From NCBI GenBank assembly GCA_031261085.1, contig JAISKB010000023.1, positions 1 to 64,000 on the forward strand: DNA of 64,000 bases. The letters are read 5' to 3'. The translations under genes and the position numbers were made by a program. The stretch comes from Christensenellaceae bacterium. GTDB taxonomy: Bacteria; Bacillota; Clostridia; Christensenellales; CAG-138. Of the stretch, positions 26,602 to 64,000 are shown in pieces; the first letter of the stretch is position 1; every line of letters begins with the position of its first letter. The notes under the pieces are model-generated. The model saw only the letters and a program-made list of their open reading frames with translations. It ran no database searches and was not told the DNA's origin.

Positions 26602-26622
26602 AGATTGAGAAAGAGGCTACGA

Positions 26623-29721: not shown

Positions 29722-29753
29722 TAGCTCACCTCGAACTCATTCGAGGTGAGCTA
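29722..29753. repeat. Perfect hairpin between binding protein and permease genes
   Basis: Fourteen-base perfect arms (TAGCTCACCTCGAA) close a four-base loop. There is no T tract. In ABC operons such hairpins often stabilise the upstream message so that binding protein exceeds permease, which is an inference here. Confidence 0.8.
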
Positions 29754-29826
29754 ACCTCGTATTTATGGCATAAGAGAATGTATCGGCAACGGCGAAATCA
29801 CACAAACTTAGCTTTGAGGTGTAATT

Positions 29827-30720: not shown

Positions 30721-30729
30721 GGTGATAAT

Positions 30730-31764: not shown

Positions 31765-31766
31765 CG

Positions 31767-44568: not shown

Positions 44569-44626
44569 ATGATAAAATACTGGTGATACACGAAAAATGC
44601 GCACCCGAGCAGAAAGGCCACTTCAA

Positions 44627-47600
44627 ATGCCGAATGTTGCACAAGAACGATACAAACCCCTGCTGGATAACCTGCTGACCGGCTTTTCCCGGCAGGCGCA
44701 CATCACGCGGCGCACGCTGCGCGTCTATTTGGAAAAGAGCGGCTTTTCCAACGCGCTGGGCGCCCTGCACCCGGATGTGCGCATCGACTGCGCGCAGGTG
44801 CTCTCCTTTTGCCGGCCGGTCATGGCATATTTCCACCCCGAGCCCAGCGAGGGCTGGATGCGGCGCGTTTACGCGCATTTGGCGAACGGGTTGTTTGCCG
44901 ATGCGGACTTCACGCCCTTGGCCAAGGGTGAAAAGCAGGCGGTGGAGTTTTTCCTCATCGTGTTCACCTGGCTGTTAAATCAGGAAAGCGCGTTTTGCCC
45001 CCCCTCGCCGTTCCACGATATCCAATTTGCCACCAAAGCGGAGCTGTCGCACAGCCGCATACGGGCGGAATACGCGCAGTTTCTTTGCCGCTTAAAAGAA
45101 AGCCGCTATGCCGAGGCCTTGCGTATGGCGCGCTATGTGCTGCCCTACGACCCGGCCGGTCACATCATCGGCGTGCATAACATATCGGTAAGCATCGCAC
45201 GGCGCGCGGCGGCCTGCGGGCTGCCGGTGGATATACCGCTGCTGGCCGCGGCCTCGCTGTGCCACGATGTAGGCAAGTTTGGCTGCCGGGGTGAGGATGC
45301 CAAACGGGTGCCCCACCTGCACTATTACTACACCTGGGAATGGCTCACGCGGGGCGGCATGGATGAAATCGCGCATGTGGCGGCCAACCATTCCACCTGG
45401 GATTTGGAATTTGAAAACCTGCCCATCGAATCCTTATTGCTGATTTATGCCGATTTCCGCGTGCGCGGCGAGCGGGATGCCGCCGGCAACGAGCAGATAC
45501 ACATCTATACGCTGGAAGAGGCGCGGGAGATCATCTTAAACAAGCTGTGCGATATCAATGATGAAAAGCGGCTGCAATACGAAACCGTCTACTTAAAGCT
45601 GCGGGATTTTGAGCGGTTCCTGCGCGATAAAGGCGTGTATGTAGGCTTAGAAGATAAGGGGCCGCTCCCGCCCATGTCCACGGATGCCTCGCTGCTCTCG
45701 GGCGCGGGCGCCATGGACGCCCTGCGGGATATGACCTTCGATCACAACATACAGCTGATGCACACGCTCTCGCGGGGGGAATCCTTCGAACAATTGCTGG
45801 AGCAGGCCCGCGCCGAAAAGAACCCGCAGCGCATACGCACCTATTTGCGTTTGCTCGAAGAATACAGCATATACCTCACCCTTGCGGCCAAGCTGCAGGC
45901 GCTCAGCTTTTTATACGAGCTGCTGATGCACCACGAGGGGGATGTGCGCCGCCACGCGGGCCGCATCATGGGGCTTATTTTGGCGGGCAGCGGCCCCCGC
46001 TACCGCAAAGAATTGCCTACGCACGCCCCGCAGGATGCCGCCGCCCCCGGCGTGACCGATGTGCTGCTCGAAGCCACCGCCCTGTGGGATACCTATATCG
46101 ACCTGTTCCTGCACCCGGATGTTAAAATATCGGCCAAGCATGCCCTGCGCATATCCAACTCGCTTAAAACCGTGGCGGGCAGCCTGTTTGCGCATTGCCC
46201 GCCGGCAGAAGCGCCGCACTATTTCGCGCCGCTGCTCTCCCGCGTGCTCAAGCCTGGGTTGCCCGTTGGCGTGCAATTTGTGCTGGTAGACGCCCTGCTG
46301 CATGTGCCGGTGGCGCTGTTTTCGAGCGCCGCCATAGCCGCGCTCGCCAATGTGCTTGCCAACATGCTCCAAAGCGACGAGCTGCGGCTGGTCATCAGCG
46401 TGCTGCGGCTGGGCGAGCGGCTGCTGGAGGCGGATAGCGACGAGGCGGTCGCCTGCGCGCAAAAGCTGCTGCAGGCGGCGCCCGGCCAGCCGGTGGTGGC
46501 CTACCTCGTGCTGCGTATCAACCGGCGTTTGGCCCACAAGCACGGCGTGCCCGCACCCGGCGCACAGGGCAGCTTCCCGGATATATCCGAGCTGTACCTG
46601 AGCAACCTCAAAAACGCCGTGCATTGGACGGTGAAGCTCGCCTATATCGACATGCTGCTCGAGCACGCGCAGACCGAAGGCCACGGCGAGGCCTTCCACA
46701 TCGCCATGCATCTTTCCAACCTGCTTTCGGTCAGCGAGCACCTGCCGGTGCGCGAAAGGGCGGGCGCGGCGCTGAGCGAAATCGCGCCGCTGCTGAGCGT
46801 GGATCAATGCAACGAGATCGTCATAGACCTTATCCGGGAGCTGGAGAGCGGGCAAGATGAAATATCCCGCTATATACCGCCCTATTTGGGCGCGCTCATC
46901 TGCCGCCTGCCCCCCAAGGAGATGGAGGAATGCCTGGCGCTGCTCGAAGGCTTGGTCCGCTCCTCCAACATACGCCCCGCGCGCACCGCGCTCTCCACGC
47001 TGGGCGCCGTGCTGTGCAGCCTTTGCGTAGAGGGCAACGCGGGGCTGGAGCGGCATATACTGGGGCTTATACTCACCGGCATCGCCCACTATGAAGACAG
47101 CATACACCGCACCGCGCTGCATGTGCTCTGCCGCGGGTTTTTCGCCAACGAAGCCGTGGGCATCGCGCGGCGGCGCGCCGTGTTCGATGGCTGCGCCAAA
47201 AAGCTGCTCACATTGCTGTGTGAGCCGCGGGATCAATCCCTCACATTTTTCAACCGCGCCGCCATGCTCAACCAGCTCTATCGCTTCATCACGGGGAGCG
47301 AACTTACCATACCCGCCGCCCCGCTCATCTCCCAAACCCCGGTCGCCTTCTTCCCCGGCGCGTTCGATCCATTCTCCGCCGGGCACCGCGCCATCGTAGA
47401 TGAAATCGCGGCGCTGGGCATGGAGGTGTACCTCTCCATCGACGAATTCTCCTGGAGCAAGCGCACGCTGCCCAAGCTGCTCCGGCGGCAAATCGCCACC
47501 ATGAGCGTGGCCGATACGCAGGCTGTGTTTTTGTTCCCCGATGATATACCCATCAACATCGCCAACGAGGCCGATTTGGCCAAGCTCACCGAGCTGTTCC

Positions 47601-51636: not shown

Positions 51637-53286
51637 TTATCCTTTGCGCAGCTCCACCCGGCGTATTTTCCCGCTGGCGGTTTTGGGCAGGCTGTCTACA
51701 AAGTCGATCAACCGGGGGTATTTATACGGCGCGGTCATGCGCTTCACATGCTCCTGTATGTCTTTTTTAAGGGTGTCTGTGCCCTCATAGCCCGGCTTCA
51801 GCACGATGGTCGCCTTCACGATTTGGCCGCGGAGCGGGTCGGGCACGCCGGTAACGGCCGCTTCGAGCACCGCCTCATGCTCGAGCAGCGCGCTCTCCAC
51901 CTCAAACGGCCCAATGCGATAGCCGGAGGACTTAATCAAATCATCCTTGCGGCCCACATACCAAAAATAACCGTCCGCATCCCGCCAGGCGACGTCGCCG
52001 GTGTGATAATAGCCGTCATACCAGCTGCGCGTGGTGGATAGCTCATCGCGGTAGTAGCCCATAAACAGCCCCAGCGGCACCGCTTCCTGCGTGCGGATGC
52101 AAATTTCGCCATGCTCGCCCTCGGCGCTGGGCTTGCCGTTTTCATCCAGCAGGTCTATTACATAATCCGGCACGGGGCGGCCCATCGAGCCGAGCTGTAT
52201 CTGCATGCCGGGGAAGGTGCCCAGGCAGCAGGTGGTTTCGCTTTGGCCAAACCCCTCGTAAATGGCTTGCCCCGTCTGCCTTTTCCAATCGCTGAACACC
52301 TCGGGGTTTAGGGCTTCCCCCGCGCTGCAGCAATGCTCCAGCGAGCTGAGGTCATAGTTGGCCGCCAGATCATTTTGCGTCATCATGCGGTACATCGTGG
52401 GCGGCGCGCAAAATGTGGTGATGCGGTGCTTTTGTATCATCTCCAATACCCTGGGCGGGTCAAACCTGTCGAAATCATAAGCGAATATGGCGGTTTCACA
52501 CAGCCACTGGCCATATATTTTGCCCCAGCCCGCCTTGGCCCAGCCGGTATCCGAAATGGTGAAGTGTATGCCGCCGGGCCTGTTGGTGTGCCAGTAGCGC
52601 GCGGTGGCGATATGCCCCAGCGGGTAGAGGAAGCTGTGCCGCGCCATCTTGGGGAAGCCGGTGGTGCCGGAGGTGAAGTATATGAGCATAGGGTCCGCGG
52701 CGCAGGTGGCCGCCTCGCCGGTGGGGCGGGGGAACGCCGGGCTTTCCTTGGCGGTTTCGGCGTCAAAATCCAGCCAATTTTCTTTGCTGCCGCCCGTCAA
52801 AACGCAGGTGCGCACCGTGGGGCAAGAGGGCAGCGCGCCCTCCACCGCCTGTATAATATACGGATCGTTGGCGCAGATGACCGTGGTGGCCGAAGACGCG
52901 TTGCAGCGGTAGCTGATATCGTGCGAAAGCAGCTGCCCCGTGGCGGGTATCATCACCGCGCCTATTTTGCACAGCGCCACGTTCACAAACCAGTATTGAT
53001 AGCTGCGCTTCATAATCAGCAGCACCTTATCGCCCTTTTTAATGCCCAGGCGGCAAAAGAAGTTGGCGGCGCGGGCGCTCTGTTCCATAATATCAAAAAA
53101 CGTGAAGCGCCGCTCCTCGCCCTCGTTGCTGATGTGCAGCAGCGCCAGCGCATCGGGCGTGCGCGCGGCAATCGCATCCACAACATCATAGCCAAAGTTG
53201 AAGTCCTCGGTTGGAGACAGCCGGTAGCTCGCATAAAAGCTCGCATAATCCGCCGTGTTCGCCTGCACATATCCATCGCTCAGCAT
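51637..53286 (-). CDS. Acyl-CoA ligase (AMP-forming), medium/branched-chain type
   Basis: A 549-residue adenylate-forming enzyme that makes acyl-CoA from a carboxylic acid, ATP and CoA. Core motifs are YFTSGTTGFPKMARH (A3), YEGFGQSE (A5), YHTGD (A7), GRKDDLIKSSGYRIGPFEVE (A8) and the catalytic Lys in PKTASGKIRR (A10). It is most like medium-chain acyl-CoA synthetases (Acs-like), which accept branched short acids. It is the last gene of the VOR/IlvE unit and has its own promoter and an Ile-type T-box, so it should be made when Ile-tRNA is uncharged. 2-Methylbutyrate is the logical substrate, an inference from regulation. Confidence 0.9.
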   Translation of the reverse strand: MLSDGYVQANTADYASFYASYRLSPTEDFNFGYDVVDAIAARTPDALALLHISNEGEERRFTFFDIMEQSARAANFFCRLGIKKGDKVLLIMKRSYQYWFVNVALCKIGAVMIPATGQLLSHDISYRCNASSATTVICANDPYIIQAVEGALPSCPTVRTCVLTGGSKENWLDFDAETAKESPAFPRPTGEAATCAADPMLIYFTSGTTGFPKMARHSFLYPLGHIATARYWHTNRPGGIHFTISDTGWAKAGWGKIYGQWLCETAIFAYDFDRFDPPRVLEMIQKHRITTFCAPPTMYRMMTQNDLAANYDLSSLEHCCSAGEALNPEVFSDWKRQTGQAIYEGFGQSETTCCLGTFPGMQIQLGSMGRPVPDYVIDLLDENGKPSAEGEHGEICIRTQEAVPLGLFMGYYRDELSTTRSWYDGYYHTGDVAWRDADGYFWYVGRKDDLIKSSGYRIGPFEVESALLEHEAVLEAAVTGVPDPLRGQIVKATIVLKPGYEGTDTLKKDIQEHVKRMTAPYKYPRLIDFVDSLPKTASGKIRRVELRKG

Positions 53287-53332
53287 AAAAGTATCTCTTC
53301 CTTTCCTATCCTATCCAAGGGCGTTCGTAAAA

Positions 53333-53560
53333 ATAAAAAGCCCCGTCTCTTATTTGAGACGAGGCTTTGTTCAGCTCGCGTTACCACTCAATTTGATTTA
53401 CCGTTTCGTTTGGTAAACCCACTCTGCAGGATTCCAGCAAATCCCTCGCCTATAACGGGGCGAACCCGGAACCTTCTATTCTTGTTACATTTCAAAGGCC
53501 CTGCTCTGGAGTGACCGCAAGATTTCGTCATCATCGGCTTGCACCCACTGCCGACTCTCT
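53333..53560 (-). promoter_or_regulatory. Ile-type T-box leader
   Basis: On the minus strand Stem I starts AGAGAGTCGGCAG (53560). The specifier loop reads GACGAAATCTTGC with codon AUC at 53523-53521. The T-box element is TGAGTGGTAACGCGAGC (53390-53374), and the terminator AAGCCTCGTCTC...GAGACGGGGCTT with T run lies at 53367-53333. Uncharged tRNA-Ile would prevent termination and turn on the acyl-CoA ligase gene 47 bases downstream. Confidence 0.87.
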
Positions 53561-53624
53561 GTGCATGACATCCATCGAGTTATTTCCATCATCGCATTTT
53601 TTGCATTATTATGAAATTACAGCA

Positions 53625-53653
53625 ATTATAATGCACGTTTGCACGCTTGTCAA
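53625..53653 (-). promoter_or_regulatory. Consensus promoter for the Ile T-box/ligase gene
   Basis: TTGACA (53653-53648), a 17-base spacer and TATAAT (53630-53625) match the sigma-A consensus at all twelve positions. It lies just downstream of the TIM-barrel/ligase gene, so the final ligase can be expressed separately. Confidence 0.85.
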
Positions 53654-53664
53654 GCATGAATTAT

Positions 53665-56160
53665 TTAGCCCTCGAGCCCATATTTTTTGGCCGCGTCCTC
53701 CCGCATTTTGTATTTGAGTATCTTACCCGCGGCATTCATCGGGAAGCCCTCCATAAAGTCCACATAGCGGGGCACCTTATGCCTTGCCATGTTGGCGCGC
53801 ACATATTCGCGCACCTCCTGCTCCGTCATGCCCTCCCCCGCCTTGAGTACGACGCACGCCATAATCTCCTCGCCATAGTTTTTATCCGGCACGCCTATCA
53901 CCTGCACGTCCTTCACCTTGGGGTGGGTGTAGATGAACTCCTCGATCTCCTTGGGATATATGTTTTCGCCGCCGCGTATGATCATATCCTTGAGGCGGCC
54001 CGTGATGCGAAAGTTCCCATCCGGCGTGCGGCAGGCGAGGTCGCCCGTATGCAGCCAGCCCTCCGCGTCGATGGCCGCCGCGGTCGCCTGCGGCATTTTA
54101 TAATACCCCTTCATGAGGTTATAGCCCCGGGCCACAAACTCGCCATTCGTGCCATCGGGCACCTCCTGGTTGGTATCCGGGTCCACGATTTTACACTCCA
54201 CCTCGGGCAGCGCGTGCCCCACGGTGGCCACCCGCACCTCGTTCGGGTCCGATGTGCTGCTCATGGTGCAGCCGGGGGAAGCCTCGGTTTGCCCAAACAC
54301 GATGGTAATCTCCGTCATATGCATCTTCTCGAGCACATCCCGCATCACGGGCTCGGGGCAGGGGCTGCCCGCCATGATGCCGGTACGCATAAAGCTGAAA
54401 TCCTGTGAGCGGAAATCCGGGTGCTCCAGCATGGCGATAAACATGGTGGGCACGCCATGAAAGCAGGTGATGCGCTCCTGCTTCACGCAGGTGAGCGCCG
54501 GCTTGGGTGAAAAGTAAGGCAGCGGCGAAAGCGTGGCCGAATGCGTCATGGCCGCCGTCATAGCCAGCACCATGCCAAAGCAATGGAACATGGGCACCTG
54601 TATCATCATGCGGTCGGCGGTAGAAAGGTCCATCCGGTCGCCGATGCACTTGCCGTTGTTGACGATATTGCGGTGCGTGAGCATAACCCCTTTGGGGAAC
54701 CCCGTTGTGCCGGAGGTATATTGCATATTGCAAACGTCATCCGGCTGTACCTTGGCCGCCCTGCGCCACACCTCCTCCACCGGCACGCGCTCGGCAAAGG
54801 CCATGGCGTCCTCCCAGGTGAGGCAGCCGTTCTGCCGGGAGGATATCGTGACGACATGCCGCAAAAACGGCAGGCGCTTGCACCGGAGCGGCTGCTGCGG
54901 GTCGGCCGTTTGCAGCTCGGGGCAAAGCGTTTGTATAATCTCCACATAGTTTGCATCGCGGGAGCCGTCTATCATCACCAGCGTATGCGTATCGGACTGG
55001 CGCAGCAGGTATTCGGCCTCGTGAATTTTGTAGGCGGTGTTTACCGTGACCAGCACCGCGCCCAGCTTTACCGCCGCCCAAAACGCGATATACCACTGCG
55101 GCACATTGGTGGCCCACACGGCCACATGATCCCCCGCCTTTACGCCCAGCGCGATGAGCGCCCGGGCAAACGCATCCACATCGGCGCGGAATTCGGCATA
55201 GGTGCGGGTATAATCCAGCGTGGTATAGCGGAAGGCATATTGGTCGGGGAACTCCTCGGCTACCTTATCGAGCATTTGCGAAAAGGTGAGCGGTATGAGC
55301 ACGTCCTTTTTCCATATGAATTTGCCGGTGCCGGAGCGGTTATAATACAGCCGGCCACGCCGCTGCCCGCCCTGCAAATAGCGCTGCATATGGTTTGCAT
55401 AGTGCGGCAGCGCCACATCCACACCCAGCGCCGCCCAAGCCTCGGCCGGCCATACCAGGGAAAGGAAGCCCTTATAATCGATGGAGCGCAGCGCCAGCAT
55501 CACATCGGCAAGCGGTACATCGCCCTCACCCGCCAGGCAGGGCGCAGACCCATCCTGGGCCTTGGAATCCCGAATGTAAACATGCTTTACATAGGCGCCC
55601 AGGTTCTCTATGGTGCTATTGGGCATTTCGCCAGCATAGCGGTAAGGGTTGTGTACATCCCATAAGGCGGCTAAAAAATCGCTGGCATATTCATCGAGCA
55701 GGCCGCGCAGGCGCTTGGTATCGGCATATATGCCGCTGGACTGCACCAACAGCACCACGCCTTTCGCCTGCGCCTCGGGCAGCAGCGCATCGAGCGCGGC
55801 GCGCAGGGCGGCTTCCCCGCCGGGCAGGTCTACCCCGCCGGGAGCCAGCGCCACATAGGGTATGGCGAGCGCGGCGCACAGCCGTATGGCGGCGAGCATG
55901 CCGTCACGCACGGCTTCATCCTGAGCGGCCTGCTCCAAACAGCCTGCCGCCGCCAGGCAGGGTATGGCCATATCCGCCTCGTTGAACGCGCGCTGCAAAG
56001 ATCGGCAGCGTTCCGACGCGCGGGCGCTCTCCAAATAGCGGTGCGCGGCCCGCGGCGAATATTCGTAGCTTACGCCCACAAAGCCCTGCTCCTTGGCCAA
56101 GGCAAAGCATTCCTCCCACGAAAATTCCTTCCAGCCCTGCGTTTCAAAAGAGAGTTTCAT
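53665..56160 (-). CDS. TIM-barrel (AP endonuclease 2-like) / acyl-CoA ligase fusion
   Basis: An 831-residue two-domain protein. Residues 1 to about 265 form a xylose-isomerase-like/AP-endonuclease-2-like TIM barrel, with ALWDVHNPYRYAGE and HVYIRDSK segments where metal ligands usually lie. Residues from about 285 onward are an AMP-forming acyl-CoA ligase with MQYTSGTTGFPKGVMLTHRN, VFGQTEASPG, HTGD, GRLKDMIIRGGENIYPKEIE and the A10 Lys in NAAGKILKYK. The start overlaps the LeuA-like gene stop (ATGA). The ligase half resembles fatty-acyl-CoA synthetases of the FadD/AcsA group and differs from the terminal ligase. The role of the barrel is unknown. Confidence 0.85.
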   Translation of the reverse strand: MKLSFETQGWKEFSWEECFALAKEQGFVGVSYEYSPRAAHRYLESARASERCRSLQRAFNEADMAIPCLAAAGCLEQAAQDEAVRDGMLAAIRLCAALAIPYVALAPGGVDLPGGEAALRAALDALLPEAQAKGVVLLVQSSGIYADTKRLRGLLDEYASDFLAALWDVHNPYRYAGEMPNSTIENLGAYVKHVYIRDSKAQDGSAPCLAGEGDVPLADVMLALRSIDYKGFLSLVWPAEAWAALGVDVALPHYANHMQRYLQGGQRRGRLYYNRSGTGKFIWKKDVLIPLTFSQMLDKVAEEFPDQYAFRYTTLDYTRTYAEFRADVDAFARALIALGVKAGDHVAVWATNVPQWYIAFWAAVKLGAVLVTVNTAYKIHEAEYLLRQSDTHTLVMIDGSRDANYVEIIQTLCPELQTADPQQPLRCKRLPFLRHVVTISSRQNGCLTWEDAMAFAERVPVEEVWRRAAKVQPDDVCNMQYTSGTTGFPKGVMLTHRNIVNNGKCIGDRMDLSTADRMMIQVPMFHCFGMVLAMTAAMTHSATLSPLPYFSPKPALTCVKQERITCFHGVPTMFIAMLEHPDFRSQDFSFMRTGIMAGSPCPEPVMRDVLEKMHMTEITIVFGQTEASPGCTMSSTSDPNEVRVATVGHALPEVECKIVDPDTNQEVPDGTNGEFVARGYNLMKGYYKMPQATAAAIDAEGWLHTGDLACRTPDGNFRITGRLKDMIIRGGENIYPKEIEEFIYTHPKVKDVQVIGVPDKNYGEEIMACVVLKAGEGMTEQEVREYVRANMARHKVPRYVDFMEGFPMNAAGKILKYKMREDAAKKYGLEG

Positions 56161-57590
56161 ACCATGCGTTCCTCATATACAATTTTGTTGAGCGCATGCA
56201 AATACGCCTTTATGCTCGCGCCGATGATGTCGGTGGAAAGCCCGTGCCCGGGGTATAGCTTGCCGTTGCTGCGCAATTTTACCAGCGCATCGCCCATAGC
56301 CTCCCGTCCCTCGGTAACGGCCTGTATCTGGAAATCATCCAGTTCAATGTGGTGCCCCACCATCTGCTCTATGGCCAAAAATGCGGCGTCGATAGGCCCA
56401 TCGCCAATGGATACGGCCTGCAGCGGTTCACCCTGCTTATCGAGCTGTATGCACGCGGTGGCGGTTATGGACTGGCCGCTGTTTATCACATAGTTGACCA
56501 GCTGATAGGTGGGCGTAACATGGCGGGTCAGCTCGGCCACCAGCGCCTCGAGATCGCGGTTATCCACCCGCTTTTTTTCGGAAAGCTGCAGCACGCGCTG
56601 GTACACGCGGTTCATGTCCTCATCCTCCAAATCGTAGCCCAGGCTTTCGACCTTGTGGCGCACGGTAAACAAGTCCGCCCCGGCGGCAATACCCTCCTGG
56701 TTTAGCTTATCCTCCGCAACGGCGGTGCCTACCACGCGGCTGAACGCGCTGCGCCCTGTGCGGTTCATGCCCAGCAGGGCCTCCATCTGCTTGCAGCCCC
56801 GCTGCAGCTCGGTGATGCGCAGGCCGCAACCGGCGTTCAAGGCATCCTCCCGCTGGGTGAGCGCATGGGCAAATTGCTCCATCGAAAGGCAGGCGCCCAT
56901 GCCGTTAAAGGTGGTTTTAAGCGCCATGGCGCCCGCGCCTATGGCGGCAATCGCGTTGGCCGTGGCCAGCCCCAAATCATCCTTGCACTGCAGGGTCAGC
57001 TTTGCGCTTGCCAAGCCCGGCACATCGCGCAGCAAATTTTGCACGAGCGCCGCGGTTTCGCCGGGCAGCAGCAGCCCCGCCGAATCACACAGGGTGATGG
57101 TTTTTGCGCCCTGCTCGAGCGCCGCCGCCAGCACCTTAACCAAAAAGTCATATTCGCTGCGGGTCGCATCCTCGGCGGTAAACTCCACATCCGGGCAAAG
57201 GCTTGTGCAGTAGCCCACCAGCTCGCGGCAGGTTTGCAGCAATGCTTCGGGCTTTACCTGATAGGCATATTCCATCTGCACGGCGGAGGTGGGCGCCACG
57301 AGGTTGATCCTGGGCCGTTTGGCGCGGGATACGGCCTCCGCCGCCCGCGCGATGGCGTCGCGGTCAATCCCCACCGGCACGCTCACGATGCTTCGGCTTA
57401 CCGTATCCGCAATGGCGGCCACAATCACCTTGTCGGCCGGCGCATCGCCCACATAGCCGGTTTCAATCACATCCACATGCAGCTTTTCCAGCAACTTGGC
57501 AAGCTCCAGTTTTTCTTTAAAGCTAAGGCCGCTGGCGGCGGTTTGTTCGCTGATGCGCAATGTGATGTCTACGATGTCGATGCTGTTCAC
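56157..57590 (-). CDS. LeuA-like DRE-TIM protein lacking metal ligands, probable pseudoenzyme
   Basis: A 477-residue protein with the 2-isopropylmalate synthase fold: TIM barrel (1 to about 270), linker, and a LeuA-type regulatory domain (about 355-470). The catalytic metal site is altered. LeuA has LRDGEQ, but this protein has L-Arg12-Ile13-S-E-Q, losing the Asp. LeuA has HxHDDLG, but this one has Gln201-C-Lys203-DDLG, losing both His. Only Asn229 of NGxG remains, and the following GERAGN is GACLSM. It is probably not a condensing enzyme; it may sense leucine or acyl-CoA and regulate partners. It lies between ilvE and the TIM/ligase gene. Confidence 0.85.
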   Translation of the reverse strand: MNSIDIVDITLRISEQTAASGLSFKEKLELAKLLEKLHVDVIETGYVGDAPADKVIVAAIADTVSRSIVSVPVGIDRDAIARAAEAVSRAKRPRINLVAPTSAVQMEYAYQVKPEALLQTCRELVGYCTSLCPDVEFTAEDATRSEYDFLVKVLAAALEQGAKTITLCDSAGLLLPGETAALVQNLLRDVPGLASAKLTLQCKDDLGLATANAIAAIGAGAMALKTTFNGMGACLSMEQFAHALTQREDALNAGCGLRITELQRGCKQMEALLGMNRTGRSAFSRVVGTAVAEDKLNQEGIAAGADLFTVRHKVESLGYDLEDEDMNRVYQRVLQLSEKKRVDNRDLEALVAELTRHVTPTYQLVNYVINSGQSITATACIQLDKQGEPLQAVSIGDGPIDAAFLAIEQMVGHHIELDDFQIQAVTEGREAMGDALVKLRSNGKLYPGHGLSTDIIGASIKAYLHALNKIVYEERMV

Positions 57591-57675
57591 AGGGGGTCAC
57601 CTTCCTTTGATTTTTTAAAATAATTCGATTAAGTTCGGCGGCATTAAGCCTTGGCTTTTGCCCGCTCTCTACAGC

Positions 57676-58758
57676 CTATATCGTTACCGTCCAGTGCATG
57701 TCATCGGGCAGGCTGCCGGTCTGTATGCCATACAGCGTGTCATACAGCCTTTGCGCAACCGGGCCCACCTTGCCGTTGCCCACGGCATAGTCGGTATCCG
57801 TCGCCTCGTAGTGCAGGCAGCCTATGGGGGAGATTACCGCGGCGGTGCCGCTGGCAAATACCTCCTGCAGCTTGCCGCTATCCGACGCGGCAAACAGCTC
57901 CTCCACCGATAAGCGCCGCTCCGAAACCTTCATGCCCCACTTGCGCAGCAGCGCGAGCACGCTATCCCGCGTGACGCCGGGCAATATGGTGCCGGTCAGG
58001 GGGGAGGTAATCACCTCGCCGTCGATGAGGAAAAACGCGTTGGAGGTGCCTATCTCCTCCACATACCTATGCTCTATGGCATCCAGCCAAAGCACATCCT
58101 TGCAGTGATACTTCATCGCCTTTTCGGAAGCCTTCATGCCGCCGGCATAGTTGCCGCCCACCTTGCAGGCCCCGGTGCCGCCCGGTGCGGCGCGGATAAA
58201 CTCATCCTCCACATAGATGCGGGTGGCGGAAAGCCCGCCGTCGTTGGCCGCATAATAGGAGCCTACCGGGGAGAGTATAATCATAAAGCGGTAATGCTTG
58301 GCGGGCAGCACGCTAAAGGATACCTCATCCGCAAATATGAACGGGCGCACATACAGCGCGGTACCGGCGCCGCTGGGCACCCAGTCGGCATCGGCCTGCA
58401 CAATGGCGCGCACGGCCTCGATAAACAAATCCTCCGGCATGGCGGGTATGCACATGCGCAAATTGGTGTTGTTCATGCGCTTCAGGTTCATATCCGGGCG
58501 GAACAGCTGCACGCTGCCCCCCGGCGTTTTATAGGCTTTAAGCCCCTCAAACATCATTTGCGCATAGTGCAGCACGCAGGAGGCGGGCTCTATGGTGATG
58601 GGCTCGTGCGGCACGATTTTGCCGTCGTGCCAGCCCTGCCCCTCGTCGTAATGCATCACGAACATATGGTCGGTAAAGTAGTTGGCAAACCCCAGGTTAT
58701 CCCAATTTGGCTTGGGCTTGGGGTGCTGCGTGCGGGTGATGGGGAAAGTATATGTCAT
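57676..58758 (-). CDS. ilvE: Branched-chain amino acid aminotransferase
   Basis: A 360-residue fold-type IV aminotransferase of the eukaryote-like BCAT group. The PLP Lys is Lys199 in ACKVGGNYAGG; VEEIGTSNAFF and ASGTAAVISPIG are cofactor phosphate and substrate-side segments. It interconverts branched 2-oxo acids with Val, Leu and Ile. It follows the oxidoreductase subunit genes in the same transcript, linking VOR products to amino acids. Length and motifs are standard. Confidence 0.96.
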   Translation of the reverse strand: MTYTFPITRTQHPKPKPNWDNLGFANYFTDHMFVMHYDEGQGWHDGKIVPHEPITIEPASCVLHYAQMMFEGLKAYKTPGGSVQLFRPDMNLKRMNNTNLRMCIPAMPEDLFIEAVRAIVQADADWVPSGAGTALYVRPFIFADEVSFSVLPAKHYRFMIILSPVGSYYAANDGGLSATRIYVEDEFIRAAPGGTGACKVGGNYAGGMKASEKAMKYHCKDVLWLDAIEHRYVEEIGTSNAFFLIDGEVITSPLTGTILPGVTRDSVLALLRKWGMKVSERRLSVEELFAASDSGKLQEVFASGTAAVISPIGCLHYEATDTDYAVGNGKVGPVAQRLYDTLYGIQTGSLPDDMHWTVTI

Positions 58759-58791
58759 GGCTCTGTACCTCGTGCTTAAAAATTTTATGCT

Positions 58792-59322
58792 TCAGTTAAC
58801 CTTTACCGCGTGGAACGCCGCCCGGTTCAGGTCGAGCAGCGCCGCCTTTTTGCCGGAAAACGTCTTTTGCATGATTTTATCGAAGGCCGCATCCGCCACG
58901 ATGCCAATCGAGTGCGCGACCGCGCCCAGCATAATCATGTTGGCGGCGCGACCATTGCCCATTTCGGCGGCCAAATCGTTGGCGGGCACGTCGATTACCT
59001 GAATATCGGTGCGGGTGGGCCGCTGATCGATGAGCGAGGTGTTGACGAACAGCTTGCCGCCCGGCTTTACCAGGCTTTCGAACTTGGTGAGCGAGGGCAG
59101 GTTCATGGCCACCACCACGTCCGCTTCATATACCAAGGGGCAGCTCACCGGCTTATCCGAAATCACCACGGTGCAGTTGGCGGTGCCGCCGCGCATCTCG
59201 GGCCCATAGGAGGGCAAAAAGGTGACGGCCTTGTTGTCGTACATCGCCGCGTAGGTGATCATTTGCCCCATCAGTATGATGCCCTGCCCGCCGGAACCGG
59301 CGAAAAACATTTTTTCTATCAT
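58792..59322 (-). CDS. 2-oxoacid:ferredoxin oxidoreductase gamma subunit
   Basis: A 176-residue gamma subunit (PorG/KorC-like), binding CoA at the active site. [19 protein letters not shown] at the start is the family hallmark. Translation is coupled to the TPP subunit gene by a four-base overlap. It belongs to the four-subunit complex with the alpha, beta and ferredoxin-type subunits upstream. Confidence 0.94.
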
Positions 59323-60074
59323 GCCTGGCCTCCTTCCGGCTGCGGCGCCCTATACACGCCCAGCGGATAATACGGTATCATCTTATCGCTCACCCATTGC
59401 AGCGCGTCGCTGGGCGTAAGCCCCCAGTTGGTGGGGCAGGTGGATAGGAATTCCACAAACGAGAACCCCAAGCCCTTTTCCTGCACCTCAAACGCTTTTT
59501 GCACGGCCTTTTTGGCCTTGCGCACATTGGCGGGCGTGTTGAGCGCCACCCGCTCCACATACACGGCGCACTCGAGCTGCGCAATCAGCTCGCACATTTT
59601 GATGGGCATACCGAATTGCGCCTTTGTGCGGCCCTCCACCGCGGTGGTGCCGCGCTGGCCTATCAGCGTGGTGGGGGCTATTTGCCCGCCCGTCATGCCG
59701 TAGATGCCGTTGTTGATGAAGAAGGTGCTAAAGCGCTCGCCCCGCGCGGCCGCCGCTATGATTTCGGACATGCCTATGGAGGCCAAATCGCCATCGCCCT
59801 GGTAGGTGAACACCACCTTGTGCGGCTGTGCGCGGCGTATGCCGGTGGCCACGGCGGGCGCCCGGCCATGCGCGGCCTCGCACATATCCACATTCATAAA
59901 CTGGTGCGCCAGCACGCTGCAGCCTATCGGCGCCACGCCCACGGTATCGCCCAGCTTGCCGTTTTCTTCAAGCACCTCCATAATGAGCCGGTGCGCTATG
60001 CCGTGCGTGCAGCCCGGGCAGTAGCTTGTGCTTACAGGGAGCATCCCCTTGGTGTATGTAAATACAGGTTTCAT
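59319..60074 (-). CDS. 2-oxoacid:ferredoxin oxidoreductase beta (TPP) subunit
   Basis: A 251-residue thiamine-diphosphate-binding subunit. YCPGCTHG carries the conserved Cys motif, and GDGDLASIG...NNGIYGMTGGQ is the TPP/Mg motif. The start at 60074 is chosen because it overlaps the preceding stop by four bases and begins the conserved region; the frame extends further upstream only inside the alpha gene. It catalyses 2-oxo acid decarboxylation or, in reverse, reductive carboxylation of acyl-CoA. Confidence 0.94.
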   Translation of the reverse strand: MKPVFTYTKGMLPVSTSYCPGCTHGIAHRLIMEVLEENGKLGDTVGVAPIGCSVLAHQFMNVDMCEAAHGRAPAVATGIRRAQPHKVVFTYQGDGDLASIGMSEIIAAAARGERFSTFFINNGIYGMTGGQIAPTTLIGQRGTTAVEGRTKAQFGMPIKMCELIAQLECAVYVERVALNTPANVRKAKKAVQKAFEVQEKGLGFSFVEFLSTCPTNWGLTPSDALQWVSDKMIPYYPLGVYRAPQPEGGQA

Positions 60075-61156
60075 TTTAAGCCCTCCAGTATCGCCTTCGC
60101 TTTTTGCGCCACTTCGATAGAAGTGGGTATAATGCCGCCGGTGCGGTGTATCAGCTCCACGGGCAGCCGCCCGTTTACGCCCCTGTATACATCCTCTATC
60201 AGCTGGCCCATCGACAGCTCGGCCGAAACCACCACCTTGGTGCGCTTGCCGATTTGGTCGAACGCCTCGTAGGGGAAGGGCCACAGGCTGATGGGGCGGA
60301 TAAGCCCCGCCTTAATGCCCTGCTCGGCCAGCATCTCGATAACCTCCAGCGTGAGCCGCGCAATGGTGCCATAGGCCACAAACACCAGCTCCGCATCCTC
60401 CAGGCCTATACATTCATAGCGGGTAAGCTCCGCTTTTGCCGCATCGTAGCGCGCAAACAGGCGTTCCACATGCTCTTCGAGCGCCTCGGGCTGCATCCGC
60501 AGGGATTTTACCACCGCGCGCGCGCCGCCCGGCTTTTTGGCATAGCCCGTGATGGCCCAGGGCTTGTTCGCCGGTATCTCCTCCGGCTCCACAAAGGGCT
60601 TCGGGTCGGGCAGCGCCACGGGCTCCATCATTTGGCCCATCATGCCGTCGGCCAGTATCATGACCGGGGTACGCCACTTATCGGCCAGCGCCGGCGCTTC
60701 ATAAATGATGTCCACCGCCTCCTGCATATTGCAGGGCGCGAATACCGGCATGTGATAATCGCCGTTGCCGCCGCCGCGCGTAGCCTGAAAATAATCCGCC
60801 TGACCGGGCTGTATGCCGCCTATGCCGGGGCCGCAGCGCGAAACGTTGAGTATCACCGCGGGCACCTCGGCCGAGCAGAGGAAGCTCATGCCCTCCTGCA
60901 TCAACGCAATGCCGGGGGACGAAGAGGAAATAAACACGCTGCCGCCCGCCGCGCCCGCGCCATAGGTCATGTTGATGGCGCCCAGCTCGCTTTCGGCCTG
61001 CACAAATACGCCGCCCCGCTTGGGCAGTTCCCGCGACATATATTCGGGTATTTCGCTCTGCGGCGTGATGGGATACCCAAAGTAAAACCTGCATCCGCCG
61101 CGCATTGCGGCTTCTGCAAAGGCCTCGTTGCCTTTCATCAATACCTTTTCCGCCAT
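60071..61156 (-). CDS. vorB: 2-oxoacid:ferredoxin oxidoreductase alpha subunit, VorB-type
   Basis: A 361-residue alpha subunit. VLMKGNEAFAEAAMRGGCRFYFGYPITPQSE is the pyrimidine-domain start typical of VorB/KorA, and the C-terminal domain has LIRPISLWPFPYEA. The start at 61156 follows GGAGGGAAAG. Sequence alone does not separate 2-oxoisovalerate from 2-oxoglutarate enzymes of this group, but the branched-chain leader peptide upstream and IlvE downstream favour 3-methyl-2-oxobutanoate and related branched substrates. Confidence 0.9.
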   Translation of the reverse strand: MAEKVLMKGNEAFAEAAMRGGCRFYFGYPITPQSEIPEYMSRELPKRGGVFVQAESELGAINMTYGAGAAGGSVFISSSSPGIALMQEGMSFLCSAEVPAVILNVSRCGPGIGGIQPGQADYFQATRGGGNGDYHMPVFAPCNMQEAVDIIYEAPALADKWRTPVMILADGMMGQMMEPVALPDPKPFVEPEEIPANKPWAITGYAKKPGGARAVVKSLRMQPEALEEHVERLFARYDAAKAELTRYECIGLEDAELVFVAYGTIARLTLEVIEMLAEQGIKAGLIRPISLWPFPYEAFDQIGKRTKVVVSAELSMGQLIEDVYRGVNGRLPVELIHRTGGIIPTSIEVAQKAKAILEGLK

Positions 61157-61169
61157 TTTCTTTCCTCCC

Positions 61170-61385
61170 TCAATCCACCTGATAAATTTCGATTGCGCCA
61201 TCCGGGCACATCATCGCGCAGCTCGCGCAGCCAATGCACGCGCTCTCATCCGTAACGCTCGCGGGGCTATAGCCCTTTTGATTGACCTGCTTGCGCATAC
61301 CGATGATCTTTTTCGGGCATACCGATACGCACACACCGCAGCCCTTACACGTTTCGTCCTGGATTTTTACCATAAATTTTGCCAT
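61170..61385 (-). CDS. 2-oxoacid:ferredoxin oxidoreductase delta (2x[4Fe-4S]) subunit
   Basis: A 71-residue ferredoxin-type subunit with two CxxCxxCxxxCP motifs (CKGCGVCVSVCP and CIGCASCAMMCP). It transfers electrons between TPP and external ferredoxin. AGGAGGAA precedes the start, and it lies 13 bases before the alpha gene. Such a subunit is found in VOR and POR and in some KOR enzymes. Confidence 0.95.
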   Translation of the reverse strand: MAKFMVKIQDETCKGCGVCVSVCPKKIIGMRKQVNQKGYSPASVTDESACIGCASCAMMCPDGAIEIYQVD

Positions 61386-61424
61386 GCTGTTTTCCTCCTG
61401 CCGTTGTATCTATATAAAATTCTT

Positions 61425-61562
61425 CTTATGTAAAGCTTATTTAAAGCGTAAGAAGCATGATTTATCGAGTCTGAGTCTCCGCATATACATCCCCTTATGT
61501 AAAGCTTATTTAAAGCGTAAGAAGCATTATTTATCCAGCCAGGTCTCCCGCATATACATCCC
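61425..61562. repeat. Tandem duplication of a 69-base unit at the ATPase gene end
   Basis: Two near-identical units (61425-61493 and 61494-61562) start CTTATGTAAAGCTTATTTAAAG. The right unit contains the last codons and stop of the P-loop ATPase gene, and the left copy is a duplicate lying outside it. About six differences separate them, clustered in the coding part. Confidence 0.85.
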
Positions 61563-62231
61563 CAGCGGGAAGGGGTTCGCAATACCCTGCAGTTCGCGCG
61601 CCTGCACCAAGGGCGCGGGGTAACAGTCGCACACGATGGGGAGCTGCAGCCGCGCCTGCACCTTCTCGCAGAGCGCATGTCCCTTTAACACGGTTTGCGC
61701 GGTGGTTTCGCGCAGCAGGTGGCAGTTGTTGATGATGCCTGTCACGCGCAGGCCGGTCGCCGCCTGTATGCTGTAGATATGCTCCAGCGCGCCCTCCACG
61801 GTGGCGGTATCCGGCCGGTTGGCGTTCACCACGCAATATACCTCGTGCTGATCCCCCTCAAAGTAGGAATGGAACTGGTGAATCACCTTGGCCCCCTCAC
61901 CGTTCCCGCCCAAATCCACAATGGCAAAGCACCCCGCATCCTCCAGCGGCGCTTTGGCGTTGGCCCCCAGCGCGGGCAGCTCCGCGGTGATCTCCTCGCG
62001 GTAGGCGCCGCCATATACCGCCACGCCTGCCTCCTCCAGCAGGCCGCGCCGCTCGCGGGAGCGGAAGTATGGGTTGGCGATATCCAAATCTATCACCGCC
62101 AGGCGCGCAAAGCGGCGCTCTGCTTGCCCCGCTTCCCACAGCGCCAGCGATACGGCAAACTCGGTTTTGCCGCTGCCATAATGCCCGGTAACGGCAATGA
62201 TGCGTTTTTGTGTGGCAAGGCTCCACTGCAT
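61527..62231 (-). CDS. P-loop ATPase, MinD/ParA-like
   Basis: A 234-residue cytoplasmic ATPase. Walker A is TGHYGSGKTEF near residues 16-26, followed by VIDLDIANPYFRS (switch/Walker A' region) and FAIVDLGGNGEGA (Walker B). The start at 62231 follows GGGAGGGGAG; a longer frame to 62270 lacks this. Homologues in Clostridia often precede VOR/KOR operons, and a role in maturation or cofactor insertion has not been shown to my knowledge. It is the first structural gene after the attenuator. Confidence 0.85.
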   Translation of the reverse strand: MQWSLATQKRIIAVTGHYGSGKTEFAVSLALWEAGQAERRFARLAVIDLDIANPYFRSRERRGLLEEAGVAVYGGAYREEITAELPALGANAKAPLEDAGCFAIVDLGGNGEGAKVIHQFHSYFEGDQHEVYCVVNANRPDTATVEGALEHIYSIQAATGLRVTGIINNCHLLRETTAQTVLKGHALCEKVQARLQLPIVCDCYPAPLVQARELQGIANPFPLGMYMRETWLDK

Positions 62232-62280
62232 ATGCGCTCCCCTCCCTTCGATACTATCTTTTGAATACAAACATCTTTCA

Positions 62281-62357
62281 AATAAATAAGCCCCGTTCGC
62301 TTAGAACGGAGCTTATGCACAACTTTGCACTTGCTATGCTGTCATTCTAAGGCGAAC
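62281..62357 (-). promoter_or_regulatory. Attenuator: overlapping antiterminator and terminator
   Basis: On the minus strand a terminator hairpin AAGCTCCGTTC-TAAG-CGAACGGGGCTT lies at 62314-62288 and is followed by ATTTATTT. Just upstream, GTTCGCCTTAGAA (62357-62345), inside the leader-peptide frame, can pair with the TTCTAAGCGAAC half of that hairpin, a mutually exclusive antiterminator. A still earlier CGAAC can pair with its GTTCG, giving the preemptor of a classical 1:2, 2:3, 3:4 layout. Confidence 0.75.
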
Positions 62358-62585
62358 TCTTGGTTTGTTCGTAAGGCTGAGTACCAGTACCAGCAGGCTG
62401 ACCAAAATAATAACCAAGCCCAGTACAGTGACTAGACCGAGCGCACGCAATACCGCCGCGGAAAACAAAAGGCACGCTTTTGCAGCATGCCTTTGTATAA
62501 ACGGGATAATTTTTGCACAAGAGAACATACCCTGCGCGCAGGGCCGGGTTGCGGTATGCTGTTGTTGGCGCGTTGTATGGGCCAT
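62334..62585 (-). CDS. Branched-chain-amino-acid-rich leader peptide of the VOR operon
   Basis: An 83-codon frame. After an N-terminal part rich in polar residues, residues 45-72 are dominated by Leu, Val and Ile (LGLVTVLGLVIILVSLLVLV), followed by a short tail and a stop next to the antiterminator. GAGAGGGGGAG lies eight bases before the ATG, and a promoter starts just upstream. Ribosomes starved of branched-chain aminoacyl-tRNA would stall in this run. It is longer than enterobacterial ilv leaders (about 32 codons), and an internal ATG at 62528 could give a shorter form. It might alternatively be a small membrane protein, but the structures downstream favour a leader. Confidence 0.7.
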   Translation of the reverse strand: MAHTTRQQQHTATRPCAQGMFSCAKIIPFIQRHAAKACLLFSAAVLRALGLVTVLGLVIILVSLLVLVLSLTNKPRVRLRMTA

Positions 62586-62628
62586 GGCAAATAGCTCCCC
62601 CTCTCAAATTTCTCTTGTGATTGAAAAT

Positions 62629-62657
62629 AATATATCAACTGTGCCCACATTTGTCAA
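62629..62657 (-). promoter_or_regulatory. Promoter of the VOR/IlvE operon
   Basis: TTGACA (62657-62652), 17 bases, TATATT (62634-62629) on the minus strand, about 45 bases before the leader peptide start. It is near the sigma-A consensus. Confidence 0.85.
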
Positions 62658-62698
62658 CCGTAAAAATAATATCATACATTATGTAATTTATTTTCTTA

Positions 62699-62727
62699 TT
62701 GACAGACGCTGGAAGGTGTGCTAAAGT
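62699..62727 (+). promoter_or_regulatory. Promoter of the XRE-cupin-ligase gene
   Basis: TTGACA (62699-62704), 17 bases, TAAAGT (62722-62727). It is divergent from the VOR operon promoter about 45 bases away and leads into the Ile-type T-box. Confidence 0.75.
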
Positions 62728-62784
62728 ACATAGCAATTAAATAAATAAAAGCGATGACGAAGACGGCGGAGTGAATTTGTTTCC

Positions 62785-63012
62785 AGAGAGTCGGCGGGCG
62801 GTGCAAGCCGATAGCGAGTTGCTCACATGTGCCTATCACTTCTGAGCTGGTAACCTGAACCGCCCTTATGCGAAGGGCCCGTAGGGGCTACCCGTGAAGC
62901 TGCGTAAATGCGATGGGCTTGCTGGAGCCCTTGAGGTGGCATAGAAATATGCAATTTGAGTGGTACCGCGGATATAGAATCCGTCTCAAAGAGATTTGAG
63001 ACGGGTTTTTTA
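62785..63012 (+). promoter_or_regulatory. Ile-type T-box leader (second)
   Basis: Stem I opens AGAGAGTCGGCGG (62785). The specifier region reads GTGCCTATCACTTCTGAG with AUC at 62835-62837, the T-box element is TTGAGTGGTACCGCGGAT (62955-62972) and the terminator CCGTCTCAAA-GAGA-TTTGAGACGG with T run is at 62981-63011. The start of Stem I is closely similar to the other Ile-type leader at 53560. Confidence 0.87.
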
Positions 63013-63044
63013 TTTTACCAAAAACCGAAGGGAGTAACCTACCT

Positions 63045-64000
63045 ATGTTTGCACAAAACGCATCACCCACTTCCCCCGAGCTGCGCGAGGTGGCCGCCCG
63101 CATTCACGAGCTGCGGGAAATCGCCGGCTATACGCAGGAGGAGATGGCGCAGTATGCCAACGTATCCGTGGAGGATTACAGGCTATACGAAGCCGCGCGC
63201 GCCGACCTGCCGTTTTCGTTTATACACAAATGCGCGCTCACCTTTAACGTAGGTATTACCGACCTTATGGAGGGCCAAAGCGCCCGGCTTTCCTCTTATA
63301 CCGTAACGCGCCGCGGCCAGGGCCAAACCACCGCCAAGGAGCCCGGCATCGAAATTAAAAACCTCGCCCCGCTATTCCGCAGCAAAATCGCGGAGCCCTA
63401 TTGGGTCACCTACGAATATGCGGAGGATCAGCAAAACAAGCCCATACACCTTGCCACCCACGGCGGCCAGGAGTTTGACATCATCCTAAACGGCAAGCTC
63501 AAGGTGCAGGTAGGCTCCAATGTAGAGGTGCTGGGCGAAGGCGACTGCATCTATTACGACAGTTCCGCGCCGCATGGCATGCTGGCCGTGGACGGCGCCG
63601 ACTGTACCTTCTGCGCCGTCATATTGCCGGGGGAAGAAAGTGGCGCGCGCGAAAACCTGGGCGAAACCATACTGCCGGCCAAAACCACGCAGCGCCTCAT
63701 CTACGAGGACTTTGTCACCACGGCCGAAGATGAAACCGGCGCGCTGCAGGGCATCTCCTTCCAAAATCAGGAGCAGTTCAACTTCGCCTTCGATGTGGTG
63801 GATGCCCTGGCGGCCAAAAAGCCGGGCAAGCTGGCCATGCTGCATTTGGATAACGACAAGGTGGCGCGCAGCTTCTCCTTTGAGGATATGAAGCTGCAAT
63901 CCGCCCGGGCGGCCAACTACTTTAAATCGCTGGGCATACAAAAGGGTGATCGGGTCATGCTGGTGCTAAAGCGCAGCTACCACTTCTGGTTCGCCATACT
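63045..64000 (+). CDS. XRE-cupin-acyl-CoA ligase fusion, 3' end outside the window
   Basis: The frame is open from ATG 63045 to the window end (318 complete codons), so the gene is partial. Residues about 12-70 form an XRE helix-turn-helix (IHELREIAGYTQEEMAQYANV), residues about 105-200 a cupin (THGGQEFDIILNGKLKVQV, then SSAPHG), and from about 225 the N-terminus of an AMP-forming ligase begins. That last part parallels the ligase at 51637-53286: FNFAFDVVDALAA against FNFGYDVVDAIAA and SARAANYF against SARAANFF. The start has GAAGGGAG upstream. A DNA-binding, ligand-binding and acid-activating chain in one, placed behind an Ile T-box, suggests a substrate-sensing enzyme. Confidence 0.88.
   Translation, partial: MFAQNASPTSPELREVAARIHELREIAGYTQEEMAQYANVSVEDYRLYEAARADLPFSFIHKCALTFNVGITDLMEGQSARLSSYTVTRRGQGQTTAKEPGIEIKNLAPLFRSKIAEPYWVTYEYAEDQQNKPIHLATHGGQEFDIILNGKLKVQVGSNVEVLGEGDCIYYDSSAPHGMLAVDGADCTFCAVILPGEESGARENLGETILPAKTTQRLIYEDFVTTAEDETGALQGISFQNQEQFNFAFDVVDALAAKKPGKLAMLHLDNDKVARSFSFEDMKLQSARAANYFKSLGIQKGDRVMLVLKRSYHFWFAI

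Follow-up and report, generated by a model that had tools for sequence, protein, structure and literature searches.

Why should genes for acyl-coenzyme A (CoA) ligases stand behind RNA leaders that sense uncharged tRNA? The question is raised by a locus at positions 51637 to 64000 of the window, the 64,000-nucleotide stretch of Christensenellaceae bacterium DNA analysed here (assembly GCA_031261085.1, bases 1-64000 of contig JAISKB010000023.1), which belongs to a 2.22 Mb draft genome in 28 contigs that is 95.5% complete. Two ligase genes of the locus lie 3' of T-box leaders, and the gene run between the two T-boxes encodes, among others, a 2-oxoacid:ferredoxin oxidoreductase (VOR), the branched-chain aminotransferase IlvE, a LeuA-like protein and a third ligase. 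The locus is predicted, with a probability of roughly 0.8, to make valine, isoleucine and leucine by reductive carboxylation of isobutyrate, 2-methylbutyrate and isovalerate, respectively, through dedicated tRNA-switched ligases and a shared VOR and IlvE. The substrates of the ligases, the direction of VOR flux and the role of the LeuA-like protein are predictions from sequence. A preliminary description of this DNA had proposed a dedicated pathway of ligase, reversed VOR and IlvE for isoleucine; sequence checks support the pathway itself but extend its scope to all three amino acids, with one ligase for each.

In the proposed pathway, each ligase would turn its own branched acid into the CoA ester, VOR working in reverse would carboxylate the esters using reduced ferredoxin, and IlvE would aminate the resulting 2-oxoacids. 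By the standard T-box mechanism, uncharged tRNA would bring about antitermination and more of the matching ligase. Since each T-box would thus answer to shortage of a single charged tRNA, the ligase at 51637 would serve valine (isobutyrate), the fusion at 53665 leucine (isovalerate) and the ligase at 63045 isoleucine (2-methylbutyrate). A leader peptide rich in Leu, Val and Ile would govern VOR and IlvE, which all three branches share, along with the fused ligase in this window. The LeuA-like protein would have lost catalysis, kept its regulatory domain and come to report leucine to the neighbouring ligase, giving feedback without the synthase reaction.

Organization of the locus

From 62657 down to 51637 on the minus strand, a promoter-like site, a leader open reading frame (ORF) and a hairpin are followed by genes for a SIMIBI-type nucleoside triphosphatase (NTPase), a ferredoxin, VorB, a thiamine pyrophosphate (TPP) subunit, a gamma subunit, IlvE, the LeuA-like protein and a fused ligase, and then by a T-box and a second ligase. 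The ferredoxin (delta subunit, 71 aa; 61170-61385) has two 4Fe-4S motifs, with PF00037 matched in two stretches and OorD/PorD, below cut-off, as the best NCBIfam match. VorB (60071-61156), the 3-methyl-2-oxobutanoate dehydrogenase (ferredoxin) subunit, scores 463.5 bits with NF005507 (cut-off 399). The TPP (beta) subunit at 59319-60083 carries PF02775 and matches TIGR02177 at 101.5 bits, below the cut-off of 261.9; the gamma subunit at 58792-59322 carries PF01558 and reaches 81.7 bits with TIGR02175 (cut-off 81.1). IlvE (57676-58758) scores 457.3 bits with NF009897, over a cut-off of 307. An acyl-CoA ligase, a VOR and a branched-chain aminotransferase, the set expected for reductive carboxylation of branched acids, are encoded together here, and the VOR-IlvE unit described earlier is borne out as one minus-strand run. 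The run also holds the LeuA-like gene and the third, barrel-fused ligase, neither of which the preliminary description had listed.

The three ligases differ in build. The one at 51637-53286 (minus strand, 549 aa, PF00501 and PF13193) is plain and MbcS-like, and is the predicted isobutyrate--CoA ligase. The predicted isovalerate--CoA ligase at 53665-56160 (minus strand, 831 aa) joins a xylose-isomerase-like TIM barrel (PF01261) to an AMP-forming acyl-CoA ligase (PF00501, PF13193). The predicted 2-methylbutyrate--CoA ligase begins at 63045 on the plus strand, runs through the window's end at 64000 to contig base 65321, and is a 758-aa fusion of helix-turn-helix (HTH), cupin and ligase parts; its AMP-binding and Cupin_2 domains score over cut-off and HTH_3 reaches 21.8 bits against a cut-off of 23. 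Beyond the window on the same contig, 3' of this HTH-cupin ligase on the plus strand, lies a gene for an omega-amidase-type C-N hydrolase, which is also found in four other loci (L048, L049, L093 and L111); its product could pull transamination from glutamine forward.

Elsewhere in the window, a single ORF of 1579 aa at 44597-49336 on the plus strand begins, by eye, with an HD-like part and carries a motif like that of nucleotidyltransferases.

T-box leaders and their specifiers

Both T-boxes match RF00230 over the whole leader (model positions 1-219, which take in Stem I, the antiterminator and the T-box sequence), at 98.0 bits for 53352-53601 on the minus strand and 84.8 bits for 62745-62991 on the plus strand; the latter lies below the gathering score of 93, with an E-value of 1.3e-17. 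A sigma-70-like promoter (62699-62727, plus strand) precedes the second. That each stands 5' of an acyl-CoA ligase gene, as first described, is upheld by the ligase domains encoded downstream of both. Specifiers were read by spacing, as a codon followed by one base, five bases and the conserved GAGC that closes Stem I. At this distance the minus-strand leader reads GCG-GUC-A-CUCCA-GAGC, which gives GUC (Val) at 53515-53513, and the plus-strand leader gives AUC (Ile) at 62835-62837. The initial reading of AUC in both leaders therefore stands for 62745-62991 but not for the leader at 53601-53352, where the AUC belongs to a GAAAUC stretch that does not keep the conserved spacing; this stretch sits further up Stem I and, by our reading, can pair with GGAU opposite. 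In the same genome and by the same rule, control T-boxes read GUC for valS, CUC for leuS and UUC for pheS, the last being a 29-bit fragment, and UAC is read ahead of a gene whose best model is tryptophanase, with tyrosine phenol-lyase fitting as well. Beyond the pair, the genome has eight T-boxes, four of which were read by the spacing rule. A further T-box in the window (36722-36965, plus strand, 72.5 bits) lies 5' of what appears by eye to be an operon like those for ATP-binding cassette (ABC) transporters.

The cluster and its code in related genomes

The preliminary description had proposed a search for the T-box, ligase and vor arrangement in other genomes, and the three are indeed found together elsewhere. 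Of the 20 stretches in a first set, two come from the window genome and 18 (L048-L065) from genomes in which the fused ligase has a match. Twelve of the 18 have a LeuA-like gene, with the fused ligase next to it each time; in 11 of those 12, VOR-type genes and ligases of the HTH-cupin or plain kind are present too, in varying order, and these 11 span five families of the order (f1, f10, f12, f14 and f16) and have up to three T-boxes each. Of the remaining six, L054, L055 and L058 hold the fused ligase beside other genes than a LeuA-like one, and L063, L064 and L065 hold a ligase part or fragment only. A scan with 13 LeuA-like proteins gave at least 594 matching stretches, at least 586 of them confirmed, and the best 80 were taken as L078-L157. 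Many of their titles name Clostridia metagenome-assembled genomes (MAGs) from goat, sheep, deer, buffalo or rumen, and three name MAGs of a Bacteroidota kind. Among these 80 stretches, many of which end at contig ends, the fused ligase occurs in 78, vorB in 37, ilvE in 36, a whole or partial HTH-cupin ligase in 36 and two full ones in 22; vorB and ilvE occur together in 27, and vorB and an HTH-cupin ligase in 33. For the 43 stretches of at least 18 kb the counts are 27 for vorB, 26 for ilvE and 26 for the HTH-cupin ligase. Counting the window and the relatives of both sets, there are 93 LeuA-like loci, and in 91 of them the fused ligase lies directly 3' of the LeuA-like gene; the other two are at contig ends. 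In L145, L146 and L148, the LeuA-like gene and fused ligase are found in Salinivirgaceae or Bacteroidetes MAGs, with no T-box called upstream, which is either horizontal transfer or a binning error.

Specifiers in these loci were called by a fixed rule, the first codon at the right distance, that was formed on the window and L048-L065, so that L078-L157 make up a separate set. A T-box and codon are called before 33 of 93 LeuA-like genes, 51 of 80 HTH-cupin matches, two of eight plain ligases and none of 100 fused ligases. The codons are sorted by gene: Leu before 30 of the 33 LeuA-like genes, Ile or Val before 49 of the 51 HTH-cupin matches and Val before both plain ligases. In the rule-forming set all 21 calls fit (five LeuA-like genes with Leu; eight Ile and eight Val for HTH-cupin or plain ligases), and in the separate set 25 of 28 LeuA-like genes have Leu and 35 of 37 HTH-cupin ligases have Ile or Val. 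Four of the five misses were inspected and have, at the right spacing, CUC (L102, L119), GUC (L116, with AAGC for GAGC) or AUC (L121); in the fifth, L110, CUC comes second among the codons listed. Six loci (L049, L060, L061, L093, L119 and L128) have exactly three T-boxes each by the Rfam model, and the codons of these T-boxes at the conserved place are Leu, Ile and Val in 18 of 18 cases, although the Leu T-boxes of L093 and L128 have earlier GAGC matches in the apical part too. The code by gene is thus Leu for the LeuA-like gene and fused ligase, Ile for one HTH-cupin ligase and Val for the other ligase. AUC also stands 5' of the best match to the 63045 gene in those relatives that give a call; a further reading of 30 loci produced 11 calls, all AUC, eight of them at genes already counted.

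Both an Ile and a Val ligase are present in 14 loci. In a quick tree built from 76 ligase rows and flagged for long branches, three changes of label suffice for the 51 rows labelled Ile or Val, whereas 2000 shuffles needed 17.1 on average and never fewer than 11; with so few changes, ligase clade and tRNA specificity go together. T-box specifiers are described as matching the function of verified genes, and so as predicting the function of the gene downstream (PMC2494555). The specifiers match the amino acids assigned to the regulated genes (GUC and AUC in the window, with the code recurring in relatives), and from this we infer a match to the substrate of each ligase.

The standard branched-chain pathway

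The preliminary description had suggested looking in the rest of the genome for ilvC, ilvD and leuB, among other genes. The contigs of the draft genome contain no match to ilvC (TIGR00465; PF01450) and none to ilvD. No ilvB exceeds the cut-off of 538 in the draft genome, where one 657-aa frame matches at 192.9 bits. No leuB scores over cut-off in this genome, which has only partial matches of 28.5 and 25.2 bits, or in the sister genomes G001 and G002. Nor does any LeuA in the draft genome exceed its cut-off, the matches being the window protein, one of 91.8 bits on contig C20 and one of 24 bits on C17. Control genomes were matched in 14 of 14 cases by each search, and over cut-off in 14 of 14 for ilvB, ilvC and ilvD and nine of 14 for leuB and leuA. 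By these searches the standard ilv pathway is absent from the draft genome, which is 95.5% complete.

A pair of LeuC/LeuD-family genes does occur in the window at 25348-27123, followed by a gene of the nickel-dependent malate-racemase family (LarA) in a plus-strand stretch that ends at 28392. The pair fits mixed hydratase families, and the three genes probably form a hydroxyacid hydratase-racemase unit. A part for the pair in leucine synthesis was considered and rejected, in view of the malate-racemase-family neighbour and the genome's lack of a leuB over cut-off. A third aconitase-family piece lies at the end of contig C25.

Fermentation would use the same genes in the opposite sense: IlvE and VOR would oxidize branched-chain amino acids to acyl-CoAs, and the ligases would run backwards to yield ATP and free acids. 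In anaerobes, VOR and IlvE do take part in the oxidative fermentation of amino acids as well, and the window has genes at 28455-33243 that, by eye and by their order, resemble those of a branched-chain-amino-acid ABC transporter. We nonetheless consider such a role improbable. Induction by a T-box upon tRNA starvation has the wrong sign for it, AMP-forming ligases normally consume ATP, the specifiers are sorted by ligase clade, and the genome lacks ilvC and ilvD, while its matches to ilvB and leuB fall short of their cut-offs. ATP-using ligases under starvation-type T-boxes suit synthesis, not fermentation.

Predicted substrates of the ligases

The best NCBIfam match of both T-boxed ligases is the MbcS model NF047394, at 438.8 bits for the ligase at 51637 and 412.7 bits for that at 63045. 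In Staphylococcus aureus, MbcS is reported to prefer 2-methylbutyrate and isobutyrate and to activate both for FabH (PMC10026030). By analogy, the main job of the ligases of the locus might be to recover branched acids that prime the synthesis of branched-chain fatty acids for the membrane, and the family match and the MbcS substrates both fit this. Control by amino-acid-specific tRNAs does not, however, nor does the company of VOR and IlvE in the related loci (vorB with ilvE in 27 of 80 and with the HTH-cupin ligase in 33 of 80), and the missing standard pathway points to amino acids as the product. Primer salvage as the main function accordingly appears unlikely, though the two uses may coexist.

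Several features of ligase architecture vary among the loci. In L054, L055 and L058, the isomerase domain of the fused ligase keeps, by eye, its Glu, Asp and His residues, which are partly lost in the LeuA-linked fusions; the residues of the unlinked fusions are a hint that the domain had a different ancestral job. In L057, L100, L103 and L115, the HTH-cupin part is a separate match beside a plain ligase, which suggests a regulator that was later fused to the ligase in other lineages. A search of plasmids for the full-length fused ligase found none, with 0 of 82 matching records covering 80% of the query at E 1e-100.

The LeuA-like protein

The product of the gene at 56157-57590 (minus strand; PF00682 and PF08502) resembles 2-isopropylmalate synthase and is predicted instead to be a leucine-sensing partner of the fused ligase. 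Aligned with solved LeuA structures, it has TLRI in place of TLRD and QCKDD in place of HCHND, so that Ile, Gln and Lys occupy the sites of an Asp and two His of the LeuA barrel that we take to be the metal ligands. All three ligands are kept in none of 213 aligned LeuA-like sequences (120 proteins and 93 loci, with the window's own in both and overlaps kept); 210 have neither His and three have at least one. The regulatory domain is better preserved: LeuA_dimer (PF08502) scores 113.4 bits, and median identity to the window protein among the other loci is 63% in this C-terminal domain against 38% in the barrel. An AlphaFold model (m6f41620e4b61; mean pLDDT 84.5, pTM 0.59) superimposes its barrel on 3ewb with a root-mean-square deviation of 1.2 A over 274 columns. 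The best fold matches include full-length LeuA entries, and leucine-bound LeuA (3fig) is one of the top ones. Among the named entries in two 120-row match lists, those of Ruminococcus are all 'Ruminococcus sp.'

The retained barrel fold, the family names (the best are all 2-isopropylmalate synthases, each below cut-off) and the LeuC/LeuD-family genes at 25348-27123 would allow an active synthase, with leucine made from 2-oxoisovalerate through LeuA and LeuBCD. This is very improbable. A working synthase was rejected as a candidate, the intact set of metal ligands being gone in 213 of 213 sequences; no leuB exceeds its cut-off in this genome, G001 or G002; and the LeuCD-like pair lies beside a malate-racemase-family gene and fits hydratase families of mixed kind.

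The LeuA-like protein is thus probably no leucine synthase. Because the metal ligands are lost, the C-terminal regulatory domain is better kept, a Leu T-box stands before the gene where one was read, and the fused ligase is its neighbour, the simplest reading is a putative leucine sensor for the adjoining ligase. A fuller proposal, to which we would give somewhat less than an even chance, is that a catalytically dead 2-isopropylmalate synthase now senses leucine as the regulatory subunit of a ligase, the fused isovalerate--CoA ligase; its old feedback site would then survive alone in a pathway that goes round leucine synthesis. With one tRNA switch per ligase, each amino acid would be controlled twice, at the level of RNA and of protein, and for the Ile and Val ligases the HTH-cupin parts would take the protein-level role.

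The leader ORF and the NTPase

The gene run with VOR and IlvE begins with a sigma-70-like promoter (TTGACA-17-TATATT, 62629-62657, minus strand), a leader ORF at 62334-62585 and a terminator-like hairpin of 13 pairs with a short T-rich tail at 62286-62316. Within the ORF, 18 of 23 residues in one stretch are Leu, Ile or Val, and a counterpart lies at the same place in G002. The preliminary description had noted a Leu/Val/Ile-rich attenuator here; a short reading frame with many residues of the amino acids under control does stand 5' of the terminator-like hairpin, and the ORF is likely to be an attenuator.

The first gene of the run (61527-62270, likely start 62231) encodes an NTPase that exceeds the cut-off of no Pfam family. 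The gene recurs beside ferredoxin and VOR genes in the compared loci; 47 of its products were aligned, and GHYGSGKT is invariant in 36 sequences. An AlphaFold2 model resembles FtsY (signal recognition particle GTPases), HypB and the nitrogenase iron protein at a TM score of about 0.5, at which level assignment to the SIMIBI class alone is safe. Nothing useful was obtained among sequence relatives in the PDB (best E 0.28). An ATP-driven electron donor was set aside because the 85% consensus of the 47 sequences contains no cysteine.

Strength of the reading

A number of observations weigh against the proposed pathway or some part of it. The reductive direction of VOR is a property that sequence cannot reveal. 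Both T-boxed ligases score about half of the NF047394 equivalog cut-off of 850. The fused ligase of the window has no T-box of its own, and the fusion occurs apart from any LeuA-like neighbour in L054, L055 and L058. The T-box pattern is called before only 33 of the 93 LeuA-like genes, 49 of the 93 loci have no full HTH-cupin ligase in the stretch, and vorB is found in just 27 of the 43 longer stretches. As to the leader, its hairpin (62316-62286) has a poor T tract, and the fold of the leader is no better than that of shuffles (z -1.0); in 47 other regions upstream of the NTPase gene, no such ORF occurs save for one weak frame (L061), in many cases because another gene lies there.

The case from the missing pathway is also weakened by the draft state of the genome (28 contigs) and by the leuB search, which exceeds its cut-off in only nine of 14 controls. 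Among 121 genomes, with carrier status taken from fused-ligase matches, ilvC occurs in one of 19 carriers and 31 of 102 others, a weak depletion (two-sided p 0.023, kinship ignored). It occurs in one of 13 carriers of both the fused and the full HTH-cupin ligase (one-sided p 0.09, kinship again ignored) and in two of 17 carriers of the full HTH-cupin ligase, namely G063, which has both markers, and G030. Because these statistics ignore kinship and ilvC is missing from 89 of the 121 genomes in any case, weight is placed on the window's genome and not on the carrier comparison.

Relation to known systems

That rumen organisms incorporate branched acids into leucine, valine and isoleucine is old knowledge (PMC7356843, PMC2812497, PMC10658910). 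As cited by PMC7356843, the conversion of isovalerate to leucine in ruminococci dates from 1962 and that of isobutyrate to valine from 1971, while PMC2812497 gives carboxylation as the probable isoleucine route in Methanobrevibacter ruminantium. The chemistry predicted here is the same: the acid becomes an acyl-CoA, then a 2-oxoacid and finally an amino acid. There it is known as physiology, whereas here it is seen as genes alone: a ligase for each amino acid, tRNA switches and a LeuA-like partner.

The RNA family (RF00230) and its logic are likewise those of known T-box regulons of ilv-leu operons, aminoacyl-tRNA synthetases and transporters, and T-box control of ilv-leu genes is documented (PMC2494555, PMC12452182). 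In those branched-chain regulons the targets differ from the acyl-CoA ligases of this locus, and words beginning with 'CoA' or 'AMP-binding' occur nowhere in the main texts of these two papers. MbcS of S. aureus, the best model for both T-boxed ligases, though they fall under its equivalog cut-off, serves fatty acid synthesis, and the abstract of PMC10026030 mentions neither a T-box nor VOR. LeuA shares the barrel and LeuA_dimer domain with the LeuA-like protein, which differs in having lost the metal-binding Asp and both His, in its ligase partner and in a genome with no LeuB over cut-off. The S. aureus ilv-leu operon has a leucine-rich attenuator, with a leader peptide before a terminator hairpin (PMC5794164). 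The leader of the present locus has the same arrangement of a branched-chain-rich peptide 5' of a terminator hairpin; unlike the S. aureus leader, it precedes VOR, IlvE, LeuA-like and ligase genes, stands beside T-boxes on the sister ligases and is a candidate attenuator.

The preliminary description knew of no described gene set with its regulation for this pathway, and in the open-access literature, subscription papers being outside its scope, we likewise found neither T-boxes on such ligases nor this cluster nor a LeuA pseudoenzyme described. The chemistry and RNA family are known, while the gene set and regulatory partner look new.

Biological significance

To judge by the title of a reference in PMC7356843, it was published in 1962 that ruminococci need branched-chain volatile fatty acids as factors for growth, and no paper that ties this need to genes and their control was found in the open-access literature. 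The cluster is a candidate genetic basis for it. The switches indicate which acid each ligase should take and so offer substrate predictions that can be tested directly. If widespread genes often named 2-isopropylmalate synthase encode regulators, as they may, metabolic models that count them towards leucine synthesis would be wrong. As a genome marker, the cluster would point to cross-feeding on branched acids excreted by neighbouring microbes, which is relevant to fibre digestion and to feed supplements.

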